Shown in pieces: positions 1 through 5,818 of a stretch of DNA of 44,938 bases. Position 1 is the stretch's first letter, and each line of letters opens with the position of its first letter. Location of the stretch: the NCBI GenBank assembly GCA_025457625.1, contig JALOUA010000004.1, positions 1-44,938 on the forward strand, in the 5' to 3' direction. Below the pieces are notes generated by a model. It was not told the origin of the DNA, did not search any database, and saw only the letters and a list, made by a program, of their open reading frames with translations. This DNA is from Akkermansiaceae bacterium. Its GTDB lineage: Bacteria; Verrucomicrobiota; Verrucomicrobiia; Verrucomicrobiales; Akkermansiaceae. The position numbers and the translations under genes were made by a program.

Positions 1-2358
1 ACGCGCTGTCACCATCCTGAAGCCCGTTCAGTTTGGTGAACAGTGAACACGACTTGCCGAAGATTTCGAAACGCTTGCGCAAGCGGGTCTCCAAATCCAC
101 ACCGTCCGAACCGTTGTTCAGAGCGCGCTTCAACATGTCCCAGACACTGAGCGATTCGATTTGCGGAATGACATGCTGATCCAGGGCCATCTCGATCGAT
201 GCCTCCATTGAGCGCTGCAGACCGGTCACGAGTTGCTGGATCTTCGTATGGGTCCAGGCCTGCCGGTGGTTGCTCGCATAAGCTGGATTTGTGTCCAGTT
301 CGCCCATAATCGCCTTGAAGCACCCACATACACTGACGCTTCCATTGCTGCCATGCCGCCAGCCATCCGCAATAGCCGTGCTTGCCTTGATCAATAGCGT
401 TTCGCTACCATCCCTTCCCGCGATCGGCATCGTCAAAACCGAATCGGTCAACCGCTGCAGTTCGGCTTTTTCACTGACGACATCGCGGTTTGTGAAGTCA
501 TGGGTTTGCTGGTCCGCCAACAGCTTGTCCACACGCATCCGGTAATTGTCAAAAACCGAGTAACCGGCGTGTTTGGCAACCAGTTTGCGAGCGACACTAA
601 TCCGACGGAGACGTTCAATAATGTCGATGAGGGCCGATTCTCCGGCAGTCAGCATCGCCAGATCCCTGATGCTGTCCCGATAACGGGTGAGCGAGTTGCG
701 GACCAACCTGGGGCCGGCCCACCGGGAGCGCAGCAGGTTCATTTTTGAAGGGAACGCCTTTTCGGATTGCTCCAATGTGGTTTCAAAAACCTGTTTGGTG
801 CCGCCCGGTCCGTAAATATGGTCACGAGTCGTGGCAATGCTTGCTCGGCAATCATCAAGTGCCTAGGTAATGATTCCCGGCCCGTCGTCCGTTCCAAGCA
901 GGCTGTTGATCAGATACTTGAGCGTTCCCATTTCGAGCCGCTTGTCAGGAAGTTCACCCAGCAAATCCTTCAGGATCTCATCCAGAGCGACTGCAAGCCT
1001 GTGACGAAGATCCTCCATCTTGGCCTTTACTTCCGGATGTTCCAATCTCAGGCAACGGCCGTAATAATCCTCAAGGGATGCGGCCATGTCCTGCCAGTCC
1101 CTATTGAATTCAGCCGCCTTGTCCGGGAGGGAGTAACGGCTGTCGTCCTTGATGGAGTCATCGCTTTCCACGGCGAACTGCTTGTAGAATTCCGCCCAAC
1201 GGATCTGGTTTTCGAAATGATTCAGGCAACTCTGATACCGGTCCGGCTCGTTGTTGTAGAAATCGTCACTGGAAAGCCGGGTGATGACTTTTTCCGCGGC
1301 GATCGCCCTCAACTTGGCTTTGGGCATCTTGATGTTCAGCATGCCGATCAACTCGATGGTATTGGGACGATTTCCGAATTGGGCATCCGCCTGCATGGCG
1401 TATTCAAAGCCAAATCGTTTTGGCTGCGCGCGCCCACGAGAGTCACCCGGTAATACGGCGGAGCCATTGTATCAAACAACCCGTTGGGTAAACTGCCATT
1501 CAATCCGAGCGTTCTTGGCCAGCGACCGTCCTTCAATACTGTCCGTCGACCATTGCTGCCTTGCAGCAGACTTAATTCAGACAAAGCAAACGCGGTATTA
1601 TGGTTCTGGGTGTCTTCCCGGATCTGGTTGCGGCTGGCTTCCATGTTTCCTGTCTGGCAGACATCGCCGAGGATGTAAGTTCCGGCAATCGTGGTGTTCG
1701 CACCGAACACATCCTTGATGAGAAACGGAATATCTAGGAACAAGCCGCTGCAGGTTCCCCCGGCAAGCAGTCCAAATACCCGACAAACCATCTCATTCAT
1801 GCCGATTTCCGCAGCCTGTTCTTCATCTCTAGCGGACAACTCTGCATATTTTTGACTAAAATAATCCCGGATGCCCGTGAGCTTGTGTCGCACCGCATCA
1901 CTGCGGTGGAAAAGCAGTCGTCCGCATGCCCGAATTCCGCCGCAGCCGGTTGTGAAATTATCCACGGGTGGATACCACGGTCGGTTTGCTGCCTTACCCT
2001 CCCAATACCACCACTTGGATGTCTCATCCAAAATTCTCGGGTCCTGCCGCTGGCTCAAAACCATGGTGTCGACGACGTCTGTGGTTTTTGAACTTCCCGC
2101 CAAGGACATGGAAAGGAAATCAAGATCGCTTCCGACTCCTTTTTCCCGATCCCGTTCCGAGGTGATGGCCAAGAAATAGGTCCACTCCAATGTTTCTTTG
2201 TCGGCTCGGCTTTCCAGTTCCTGTTTGAGTTTCGAAACAATCTTGGCTCCGGTCGAGCCGAGACCGATGTAAATTCTCGGGTGTATGGCCATGGTTTGTG
2301 GGGGTTGGGTGTCTGATTGGGATGGTTTTTCGTGTTCAGGCTTTTTCACGCCACTCAA
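1..2358 (-). pseudogene. Tubulin-like GTPase (Tubulin_2-type), disrupted, 3' end beyond window
   Basis: N-terminal part (ORF 1348..2358) has IGLGSTGAKIV and GGTCSGLFLDIPFLIKD glycine-rich nucleotide-binding motifs. Coding continues in another frame (ORF 863..1396) and then, after an in-frame TAG at 863-865, stays open in that same frame to position 1 (MGELDTNPAYASNHRQAWTHTKIQQLVTGLQRSMEASIEMALDQHVIPQIESLSVWDMLKRALNN...). Confidence 0.65.
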
Positions 2359-4540
2359 CGGTCACGCCGCCAAAGACGAATTGATCGCCGTGTGTGAGAG
2401 GAGTTGGGCCGGCCACTTCACTTTCGGTTACCGCCTTTTGACCAAGTCTGATGGTTTCCGAGCGCTTTTTGACTGATTTTTCGGTCTTCGGAATGAGCAC
2501 GAAACTCTGCTGGAATGGCACGCGCCGGATCACTGCAAGGGTGGATGATCCTGCCTGCCTCAACTGGATGTCGTCGGAACTGGAACCACCAACCGTCGCC
2601 AACCGTCGCGGCCACAACCAGTTGGTGGCTCCGTGGGCGCGGAATACCTGACCCATCGTGGTCGAGCTACCCGGGTCCGGTTTGAGCGAGAACTCCAAAC
2701 CGCGTCTTTTTTGTGCGAGACTGAGACATGGTTTGAGGAAGAACGGCACGACACCGAAGATCCAGATGAAGAAAAGGACAGCTGCTCCGATCAGGTATTT
2801 GGCCCATGCGGGAAGTGGTGCTTTTGCTTTGATGCCCAGTGGCGAAGCCGTGATACTTGCTTTGCCATCGGCTCCTACAAAAGAAACACTGACCGAAACC
2901 TGGTAATCGCCCGGCTTCTTATAGGTATGGGATGGGTTCACCTCGCTGGTGGTTTCTCCGTCGCCAAAGTTCCATTGGATGGATTCGTAGGCGCCGTCGA
3001 TCTTGGCGGTGAAGCTGACTTCGAAAGGAACCGTTCCCTTTGATGGGTCGGCAGTCACGCTGATCGTCGGACCCGGCGGCAACACCTCAATGGTTGTGCT
3101 GGTCTCCGCTTGCCCACCCGGGCCCTTGACAACGAGACGCACTATCCGTTGCCCCGGGGTTTTGAAGGAATGAAGTGGGTTTTTCTCGGAGCTGGTTTTC
3201 TCGCCTGCGAAATCCCACACGTAGCTTTCGACCAGCCCCTCACTCTGGTCCATGAACTGGACCGACTCCCCCACCTTGAACTTTTCCCCAACCATCCGGA
3301 TGCCGGCGGTCGGCATGGGTGCGGGCGGTGGTTTTGGCAGAACGGTGACTTTCCGGGTGGCCGTCCCCTTCTGACCATTGTCGCCCGCGACTTCCAGTGT
3401 GACCTCGTAAGACCCCTCTGTTTCAAAGGTGAAAGCGAGAACGCGCTCATTGCCGGAGGGTTTCCCCTCAACCGTCCACTTGCGCTGGGTGATTTCGCCG
3501 ATTGAGCGATCCACGAATTCCGCGGGGCGGGCGGCAATCACTTCGCCTGGCACATGGAAGTCCGCCTGAACCGGGCTGGTTCCGACATTCACGATTGCCT
3601 GCGCTTTGTCGCGGGATCCGCTCTTGCGCTGGACTTCCAGCCTTACCACGTAGCGGCCCGGCTGGGTGAAGGTGTGCTTGACCGACTTGCCTTCGCCCGC
3701 AGGCTGGTCGTTCACCAACCACCGATGTGCCTGGAAGGCGGATTTGGAAGCATCGAAGAAGGTCACTTCCTGGCCGGTCACCGCAGGGCTGGGTGCCCAT
3801 TCGATGACAGGCGGGAAAGGATCCTCGGCGAAGTTCGGGTCGAGGACCGGATTGATGCGCCCTTTCTTCGCCTCCGCATTCACAGGCCCCATGAATTCCG
3901 CCTTGAGCGAGCCCAAGAGGATGAGGTCCGGCAGCATCAGACCTTTGGGGATTTCCGGAAACCCGTCGAGGACCTGCTGAAGGGTCAGGCTCGAACCCGG
4001 GTGATCGTTCTCGCCATCGGTGATGACCCGCACGTTGACCCACTGGTCTTCAGAGGATGCGGCGTATTCCCTCGCCTTCAGCAGAACGCGGCGGATGGTG
4101 GCGTAGAGATGGGTCTGGCTGTCGCGCGGCGGTGCCAGCGCCTTGACCCACGCTTCCGCTTTTTCCCTGTCACCCGCCCGGCTGAAAAGGAACTCCCGCT
4201 CGGAAACGATCCCGCTGTTGAACGAGATCAGGAACAGACGGGAATCCGCGGGCAATGAGGCGACGTAATTGCGAAGGGCCGGCCTGACGATGTCGATCCG
4301 CGAGGTCGCCCCGCTGCCCTGGGGGATGCGGTTGCCGTCCTTGTCCCAGAGCATGGAACCGGAAACGTCAATCGCCAGAATGTGGTCTGCGGCATGCAAA
4401 CGGCATGCGCACAGAGCCATCAAAAGCAACCATGCTAATTGACGCAAAATCAGCTGACTCGTGGCAATAAGGTCTTTCCTAACCATCTTCAAGTGATTCG
4501 TATTCAATTCACCGTTCGCCCGCAACTCCAAACGGAGCAA
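2336..4540 (-). CDS. VWA domain protein with about four PKD-like repeats, one TM helix and a C-terminal FHA-like domain
   Basis: Signal/TM N-terminus, then HILAIDVSGSMLWD (MIDAS DxSxS). PKD-like repeats (YVWDFAGEKTSSEKNPLHSFKTPGQ; IQWNFGDGETTSEVNPSHTYKKPGDYQV). TM segment YLIGAAVLFFIWIFGVVPFFL, then RLATVGGSSSDDIQLRQ...LTHGDQFVFGGVTVEW. Confidence 0.85.
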   Translation of the reverse strand: MLRLELRANGELNTNHLKMVRKDLIATSQLILRQLAWLLLMALCACRLHAADHILAIDVSGSMLWDKDGNRIPQGSGATSRIDIVRPALRNYVASLPADSRLFLISFNSGIVSEREFLFSRAGDREKAEAWVKALAPPRDSQTHLYATIRRVLLKAREYAASSEDQWVNVRVITDGENDHPGSSLTLQQVLDGFPEIPKGLMLPDLILLGSLKAEFMGPVNAEAKKGRINPVLDPNFAEDPFPPVIEWAPSPAVTGQEVTFFDASKSAFQAHRWLVNDQPAGEGKSVKHTFTQPGRYVVRLEVQRKSGSRDKAQAIVNVGTSPVQADFHVPGEVIAARPAEFVDRSIGEITQRKWTVEGKPSGNERVLAFTFETEGSYEVTLEVAGDNGQKGTATRKVTVLPKPPPAPMPTAGIRMVGEKFKVGESVQFMDQSEGLVESYVWDFAGEKTSSEKNPLHSFKTPGQRIVRLVVKGPGGQAETSTTIEVLPPGPTISVTADPSKGTVPFEVSFTAKIDGAYESIQWNFGDGETTSEVNPSHTYKKPGDYQVSVSVSFVGADGKASITASPLGIKAKAPLPAWAKYLIGAAVLFFIWIFGVVPFFLKPCLSLAQKRRGLEFSLKPDPGSSTTMGQVFRAHGATNWLWPRRLATVGGSSSDDIQLRQAGSSTLAVIRRVPFQQSFVLIPKTEKSVKKRSETIRLGQKAVTESEVAGPTPLTHGDQFVFGGVTVEWREKA

Positions 4541-4823: not shown

Positions 4824-5228
4824 ATGCTGTGCCTCGATGTCGTCGGCACGGATGGCATGGACGAGAGCGAGCTCATTCACGCGCCGAGAGCGGAACATCT
4901 CGATGAAGTCTTCCGTTTTGCCGACAGCATGCCGGGAGAGCCCCTGCTTGTTCACTGCTGGGCAGGGGTTTCGAGGAGCACCGCCGTCGCGCTTGTCCTG
5001 ATCGTCAGGGCTATGCATTTCGACGGCTACACCGAAGATGAAATCGTCTCTGAGGCCTGCGAAATCCTTTTGGAGATCCGGCCTCAGGCAGCGCCAAATC
5101 CCCTGGTGCTGGAGATCGGGCTATCCCGATTCATGGATGCCGACTCCGCCAATCGCCTCATGGTCCGCCTGGTCAACGACCCGGCGCTTTTCCAAAATCG
5201 CCACAAGGGTGCCTCGCCCGGAATTTGA
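4824..5228 (+). CDS. Dual-specificity / tyrosine phosphatase-like protein, N-terminus probably damaged
   Basis: LLVHCWAGVSRSTAVALVLI carries the HC(X5)R active-site signature; upstream frame has a TGA at 4767-4769. Confidence 0.65.
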   Translation: MLCLDVVGTDGMDESELIHAPRAEHLDEVFRFADSMPGEPLLVHCWAGVSRSTAVALVLIVRAMHFDGYTEDEIVSEACEILLEIRPQAAPNPLVLEIGLSRFMDADSANRLMVRLVNDPALFQNRHKGASPGI

Positions 5229-5732: not shown

Positions 5733-5818
5733 TGGTGGGCAGAGCTGGATTCGAACCAGCGTAGGCGTTAGCCAGCAGATTTACAGTCTGCCCCCTTTAG
5801 CCACTCGGGCATCTACCC
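5733..5818 (-). tRNA. tRNA-Tyr (GTA), CCA encoded
   Basis: Reverse complement GGGTAGATGCCCGAGTGGCTAAAGGGGGCAGACTGTAAATCTGCTGGCTAACGCCTACGCTGGTTCGAATCCAGCTCTGCCCACCA. Acceptor, anticodon (CTGTAAATC) and T arms (GGTTCGAATCC) pair; long variable arm present. Confidence 0.95.

Follow-up and report, generated by a model that had tools for sequence, protein, structure and literature searches.

A vWA–PKD membrane protein with an FHA-fold tail beside a broken Tubulin_2 gene in an Akkermansiaceae genome: a candidate membrane tether for a tubulin-like protein

Two neighbouring minus-strand genes lie at one end of contig JALOUA010000004.1 from an Akkermansiaceae bacterium (assembly GCA_025457625.1): one encodes a predicted single-pass membrane protein with a von Willebrand factor A (vWA) domain, and the other a tubulin-like GTPase of the Tubulin_2 (FtsZl1) family. 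The stretch analysed here (the window) is the whole of this contig, C20, which comprises 44,938 bases and is one of 406 in a draft metagenome-assembled genome (MAG) that is 82.75% complete. Base 1 of the window is the contig end, where the tubulin gene runs off, and everything further left is therefore lost from contig C20. A search for the rest of the operon in this incomplete genome, aimed at BrxL and at TolQ-like partners, was empty on both counts.

The vWA gene (2336..4486, minus strand) is contained in an open reading frame (ORF) that remains open up to a TTG at 4540. This frame (4540–2336, minus strand) encodes 734 aa and is fully open, with the ATG at 4486, which corresponds to residue 19, being the likeliest start. 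The protein begins with a signal peptide or first hydrophobic stretch (MVRKDLIATSQLILRQLAWLLLMALCACRLHAAD; 4385..4486, h-region at residues 30–45), as read from the sequence rather than with a signal-peptide predictor, and continues into a vWA domain (3893..4384) with an intact metal ion-dependent adhesion site (MIDAS), all of whose parts are present: D58VSGS, SQTHLY (T143), and TDGEND at 173–179. The Pfam VWA_2 match is 23.1 bits, under the cut-off of 27; a family hidden Markov model (HMM) trained exclusively on vWA proteins encoded beside other Tubulin_2 genes, with the window protein left out of the training set, recovers it at E = 1.1e-9. Four PKD (Ig-like) repeats follow (2825..3817; individually ~3817–3581, 3571–3335, 3310–3074, and 3070–2825, or residues ~242–320, 324–402, 411–489, and 491–572, with boundaries set by eye), which Pfam PKD_4 matches in four stretches at E = 4.6e-44. 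A single transmembrane (TM) helix, YLIGAAVLFFIWIFGVVPFFL (residues 582–602; 2735..2797), is the top hydrophobic window of the protein (2.53). Hence the exported vWA domain with a DxSxS motif, the approximately four PKD-like repeats, and the TM helix described in an initial annotation of this DNA are all borne out. PKD matches on plasmids and in related genomes were rejected as whole-protein relatives, being generic repeat matches.

Beyond the helix, the protein ends in a cytosolic tail (residues 614–734, ~130 aa; 2339..2701, with its core at 2608–2351) that adopts an FHA fold according to profile (hhalign) and structure (Foldseek) comparisons. The Pfam FHA profile does not match the window tail. 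An independent FHA profile, for which 29 ordinary FHA domains were taken from related genomes, matches the single tail sequence in hhalign with E = 2.6e-4 and a score of 24.9 over 71 columns. None of 200 shuffled tails reached this score (the best gave 17.0), with the reversed tail scoring 12.1 and the window's own PKD repeats scoring 8–11. All of the FHA core is covered by the alignment, which pairs VGGSSSDDIQL with IGRxxDNDIxL at one end and PLTHGDQFVFGGVTVEW with the closing LxxGDxIxxG motif at the other. For the homologous cyanobacterial tails, AlphaFold2 gives a predicted local distance difference test (pLDDT) value of 92, and FHA-domain structures make up all of the top 50 PDB fold matches; PDB profile matches of the cyanobacterial tail are mostly FHA, and its hhalign match to the independent profile has E = 5.9e-9. 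The model of the window tail has a pLDDT of 52 and agrees, in that its top 13 Foldseek matches are all FHA, although these matches are not independent because cyanobacterial FHA-fold rows sat in the alignment from which the model was made. The FHA-like reading of this domain in the initial annotation therefore holds. At the phosphothreonine-binding positions of the FHA-profile alignments, GR has become GG, SxxH has become SxxL, and NG is gone in the window tail, and comparable positions are also lost in the cyanobacterial tails. The replacement of the FHA arginine, the SxxH histidine, and the NG motif makes it unlikely that the tail reads phosphothreonine.

The in-frame part of the tubulin gene (1351..2358, minus strand; probable ATG at 2292) encodes the GTPase domain, matching Tubulin_2 (PF13809) with 91.6 bits and E = 7.7e-26 over profile positions 1–234 of 356, and the family HMM with 100 bits. 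The GTP-binding loops are GLGSTG (T1) and GGTCSG (T4), in keeping with the tubulin-type glycine-rich loops noted earlier. The two genes had also been described as overlapping: they are indeed neighbours on the minus strand, but an overlap needs a TTG or GTG start, whereas the ATG at 2292 leaves a gap of 43 nt. Relatives of this tubulin were gathered by an alignment scan of ~85,000 species genomes, which yielded 114 distant ones, with 80 loci being kept; neighbourhood counts below are taken over 79 relative loci and tubulin ORF comparisons over 69.

In the window, the tubulin gene is broken. The reading frame is lost near 1400, with the responsible base located to 1397..1440, and the gene continues in a shifted frame for ~190 open codons (866..1396; a weak collinear match of 3.2 bits vs 1.3 for the best shuffle) up to an in-frame TAG stop (863..865). 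A further continuation of 287 open codons (2..862) is cut by the contig end. A long protein with a coiled-coil or helical C-terminal part in a single frame is a mark of the FtsZl1/Tubulin_2 family; the window gene can be followed for ~785 codons before the contig runs out, interrupted by one frameshift and one TAG. The frames of its relatives are unbroken, 64 of 69 ORFs being longer than 700 aa; the C-terminal pieces of the window gene match these relatives only weakly and, alone, have no convincing homology. A programmed frameshift was rejected as the main explanation in view of the uninterrupted relatives together with the second lesion. The lesions may reflect decay or sequence error in a draft contig end. 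One other, weak PF13809 match occurs in the same genome, in a 617 aa open frame on contig C333; like matches are found in most relatives, and this protein is probably FtsZ.

The pairing of the two genes extends well beyond the window. A vWA gene lies directly upstream of Tubulin_2 in 47 of the 79 loci and at most three genes upstream in 57, as against downstream in one locus, and only one vWA match among 960 ORFs lies more than five genes away. The topology is likewise conserved: 53 of the 57 upstream vWA proteins have one late TM helix followed by a cytosolic tail of 59–145 aa. Pfam vWA families match 26 of the 34 neighbours scanned, and several have weak Ig-like matches. Judging from these matches, the putative Ig-like families between the vWA domain and the TM helix in other members parallel the PKD stalk; PKD repeats as such were found, among the neighbours scanned, in the window protein only. 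FHA-like tails are detectable in Nostocales, Pseudanabaenales, Acidobacteriota (L130; L numbers denote individual loci), Actinomycetota (L131, where the Pfam FHA profile matches at E = 0.012), and Bacillota (L113 and L126), as well as in the window, and the tails of Thermales show marginal FHA similarity. An FHA fold, membership of the tubulin family, and conserved co-occurrence of the two genes had been set beforehand as the points on which the initial annotation could fail, and all three were found.

In a tree built from tubulin domains, the window clusters with L093, L128, L120, and L059 (99/91), two Deinococcota and one Hydrogenedentota being among these loci. This grouping is supported by the T4 loop, as GGTCSG is rare and occurs in 3 of the 69 others, namely exactly L059, L093, and L120. 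No close relatives of the window tubulin were found among 388 genomes of the phylum, in a phage collection, or by a single-protein scan of genome contigs. Tubulin_2 operons from the same order (L141–L147) were considered as relatives and rejected, as they are without a vWA gene, fall in other clades, and are of a different type. The locus was probably acquired horizontally, based on its lower GC content at third codon positions (GC3), the lack of close relatives in the phylum, and the adjoining tRNA-Tyr gene. The tubulin and vWA parts have a GC3 of 0.58–0.71 vs 0.70–0.89 elsewhere. The tRNA-Tyr gene (5733–5818, minus strand), the only match of its kind in the genome, stands at the border between lower-GC3 genes to its left and higher-GC3 genes to its right; in relatives, the transglutaminase gene that neighbours it in the window is not beside a tRNA.

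In light of these features, what might the two proteins do together? Here, we propose, at about even odds (a probability of roughly 0.5), that the locus is a vWA-type FtsZl1 (Tubulin_2) operon in which the membrane protein tethers the tubulin-like protein and works from the outside in. In this mechanism, the inner-membrane protein would expose its metal-binding vWA domain, carried on the stalk of four PKD repeats, to the periplasm or the outside, pass the membrane once, and end in the small cytosolic FHA-fold domain. Lacking the phosphothreonine-binding residues, this tail would act without any need for phosphorylation, as an adaptor through whose presumed contact the tubulin-like GTPase is held or nucleated at the inner membrane face. 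Engagement of the vWA/PKD part by a putative outside ligand might then change the assembly of the tubulin inside, possibly into filaments.

The FtsZl1 family, its association with vWA proteins, and their signal peptides and TM segments were described by Makarova and Koonin (2010), who proposed a role in membrane remodelling (PMC2875224); FHA and PKD domains go unmentioned in the main text of that paper. We draw a distinction between the vWA–FtsZl1 pairing, which is already known, the FHA-tailed topology, which is a less well known refinement, and the PKD version, which is a variant. A referee of the 2010 paper raised the objection that an FtsZ-like protein in the cytoplasm and vWA proteins in the periplasm cannot come together in a complex (PMC2875224). 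The conserved single TM helix and small cytosolic domain, with an FHA fold in at least five phylum-level groups, remove this objection. As FtsZl1 proteins are widespread and largely uncharacterised, it matters that the topology provides a physical path through the membrane and narrows the candidate tubulin-binding piece to ~100 residues. The link that the initial annotation drew between an extracytoplasmic sensor and a cytoplasmic tubulin-like protein is upheld as regards topology (in the 53 of 57 proteins mentioned above); the pairing is an already known one, the adhesive role of the sensor is putative, and in the window the tubulin partner is broken.

That break is one of several points that weigh against the proposed tether. 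The window tubulin also sits on a long branch (2.07), which makes its placement in the tree unsure, and its nearest clade has vWA-like partners in which the MIDAS is missing. Across the relatives, 21 of the 79 loci, mostly from Ignavibacteria, are without a vWA neighbour, and FHA similarity is undetectable in the tails of Clostridium, Bacteroidales, Latescibacterota, Gemmatimonadota, and others, so that different lineages may have different adaptors or ones that escape recognition. FtsZl1 proteins are without recognisable T6–H7 elements (PMC2875224), making filament formation uncertain. The predicted structure of the window tail, moreover, comes from a low-confidence model with FHA-fold rows in its alignment.

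Comparison with known systems places the window among the published FtsZl1/vWA operons, with which it shares a gene for a cytosolic Tubulin_2 GTPase adjoining a gene for a vWA protein with a signal peptide and MIDAS. It goes beyond their published description (main text) in its PKD stalk and its FHA-fold tail, and it differs in having GGTCSG in place of the usual GGTGSG and a broken frame; GTPase, kinase, and OmpA partners are not visible because the contig ends inside the tubulin gene. GAP1-N2 conflict systems, too, include a tubulin homologue and a membrane-bound vWA protein; in Actinobacteria, the latter forms a fusion with FNIII repeats and with a beta-rich domain described as uncharacterised (PMC7159879), and this last domain may be equivalent to the FHA-fold tail. 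The DO-GTPase/GAP1 genes by which these systems are defined do not show up in the window, although no model aimed at them was run and they would sit left of base 1. The Deinococcota Tubulin_2 operons (L059 and L120) belong to the nearest tubulin clade and share GGTCSG with the window, but the vWA-like protein of L120 has neither MIDAS nor PKD repeats, and TolQ/OmpA genes are not seen in the window. These two Deinococcota loci carry TolQ/ExbB-like genes (with weak ZorA matches in L059), OmpA genes, and LRV/HEAT-repeat genes, which resemble parts of Zorya.

Integrins consist of a vWA/MIDAS head, a beta-sandwich stalk, a single TM helix, and a small cytosolic adaptor site that provides a link to the cytoskeleton. 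The likeness of the window protein to integrins is one of layout, in the sense of working alike, and we claim homology no further than the vWA fold; the partner in the window is tubulin-like rather than actin, and adhesion by the window protein is putative. Carried further, the analogy would have many phyla sharing a transmembrane cytoskeletal receptor with an integrin-like outside-in layout, in which a MIDAS-bearing vWA head, an Ig-like or PKD stalk, and a TM helix are joined to a degenerate FHA adaptor that nucleates a divergent tubulin. We regard this generalisation as rather unlikely.

The tether has to be weighed against other explanations, of which the strongest, at somewhat short of an even chance, is that the locus has no function in this organism and is the decaying remnant of a fragment acquired at tRNA-Tyr. 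The frameshift and TAG in the tubulin gene are what such a remnant would show, and the lowered GC3 of the tubulin and vWA parts, the absence of a close relative in the phylum genomes, and the nearby tRNA-Tyr agree with its acquisition. However, the vWA–PKD–TM–FHA gene is open over all 734 codons with its MIDAS intact, and sequence errors could account for both lesions, which lie close to the end of a contig from a draft MAG. The window copy may accordingly be a decaying island at tRNA-Tyr or have been hit by such errors. The resemblance of the locus to an island beside tRNA-Tyr also speaks for a conflict or defence system, in which the membrane vWA protein would sense a signal related to invaders and its tubulin-like partner would be an assembling effector, as proposed for GAP1-N2 systems (which include tubulin and membrane vWA genes; PMC7159879), or a helper of an island resembling bacteriophage exclusion (BREX) systems. 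HSP70-like third genes in L076, L127, and L136 echo the same paper, and in Thermales (L057, L058, L060, and L068) a trio of vWA, tubulin, and hypothetical genes is located on the 5' side of brxL, in the vicinity of methyltransferase, HEPN, or helicase genes. Nonetheless, PADLOC models matched none of the window proteins, the BREX link is seen with the Thermales relatives only, there being no BrxL_ATPase in the window's own genome (83% complete), and the cyanobacterial loci, surveyed as ORFs only, have a constant third gene without a Pfam match and not known defence genes. A search for work joining tubulin-like proteins with BREX found none in the literature collection covered. With the sole published Tubulin_2 mutant that we found showing a motility phenotype instead, we consider a defence role doubtful, at perhaps one chance in a few.

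This mutant is the starting point for a slightly less probable explanation, namely a role in surface motility or envelope organisation such as pilus positioning, where the vWA/PKD part would bind surface or pilus components. Synechocystis mutants of sll0445 (Tubulin_2), sll0446 (FtsA-like), and sll0447 are impaired in phototaxis, and an association with pilus proteins has been reported (PMC9880817); at least one Tubulin_2 member therefore acts at the cell envelope, and Nostocales are strongly represented in the tubulin-relative set. Against this, the membership of sll0445 in a vWA-type operon is putative, and the tubulin family is spread over many lineages of unrelated lifestyle. Finally, the FHA tail could read phosphothreonine, with recruitment of the tubulin depending on prior phosphorylation by a Ser/Thr kinase, which would fit the protein kinases found in FtsZl1 neighbourhoods and fused to FtsZl1 in Planctomycetes (PMC2875224), along with a phosphatase-like ORF (4824–5228) divergent beside the window vWA gene. 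This is improbable and the least credible of the four, as the residues concerned are replaced in the window and comparably lost in the cyanobacterial tails.

Some observations on the relatives and on the surroundings of the locus may be added. The verrucomicrobial loci L141–L147 mostly represent another operon type, made up of a TM protein of ~263 aa, a tubulin, and a protein of ~650–750 aa; in L144 and L147, a multi-TM gene and a one-TM gene resemble the Deinococcus TolQ/OmpA pair by appearance rather than by profiles. The Thermales trio is possibly an unlisted BREX-like accessory module. The gene after Tubulin_2 is HSP70-like in Gemmatimonadota (L076), Bryobacteraceae (L127), and Latescibacterota (L136), and encodes a membrane protein with a papain-like protease in Bacteroidales (L112). 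In the window itself, the ORF divergent from the vWA gene (4824–5228, plus strand) is dual-specificity/tyrosine phosphatase-like, with the motif HCWAGVSRS and an N-terminal part that seems short.

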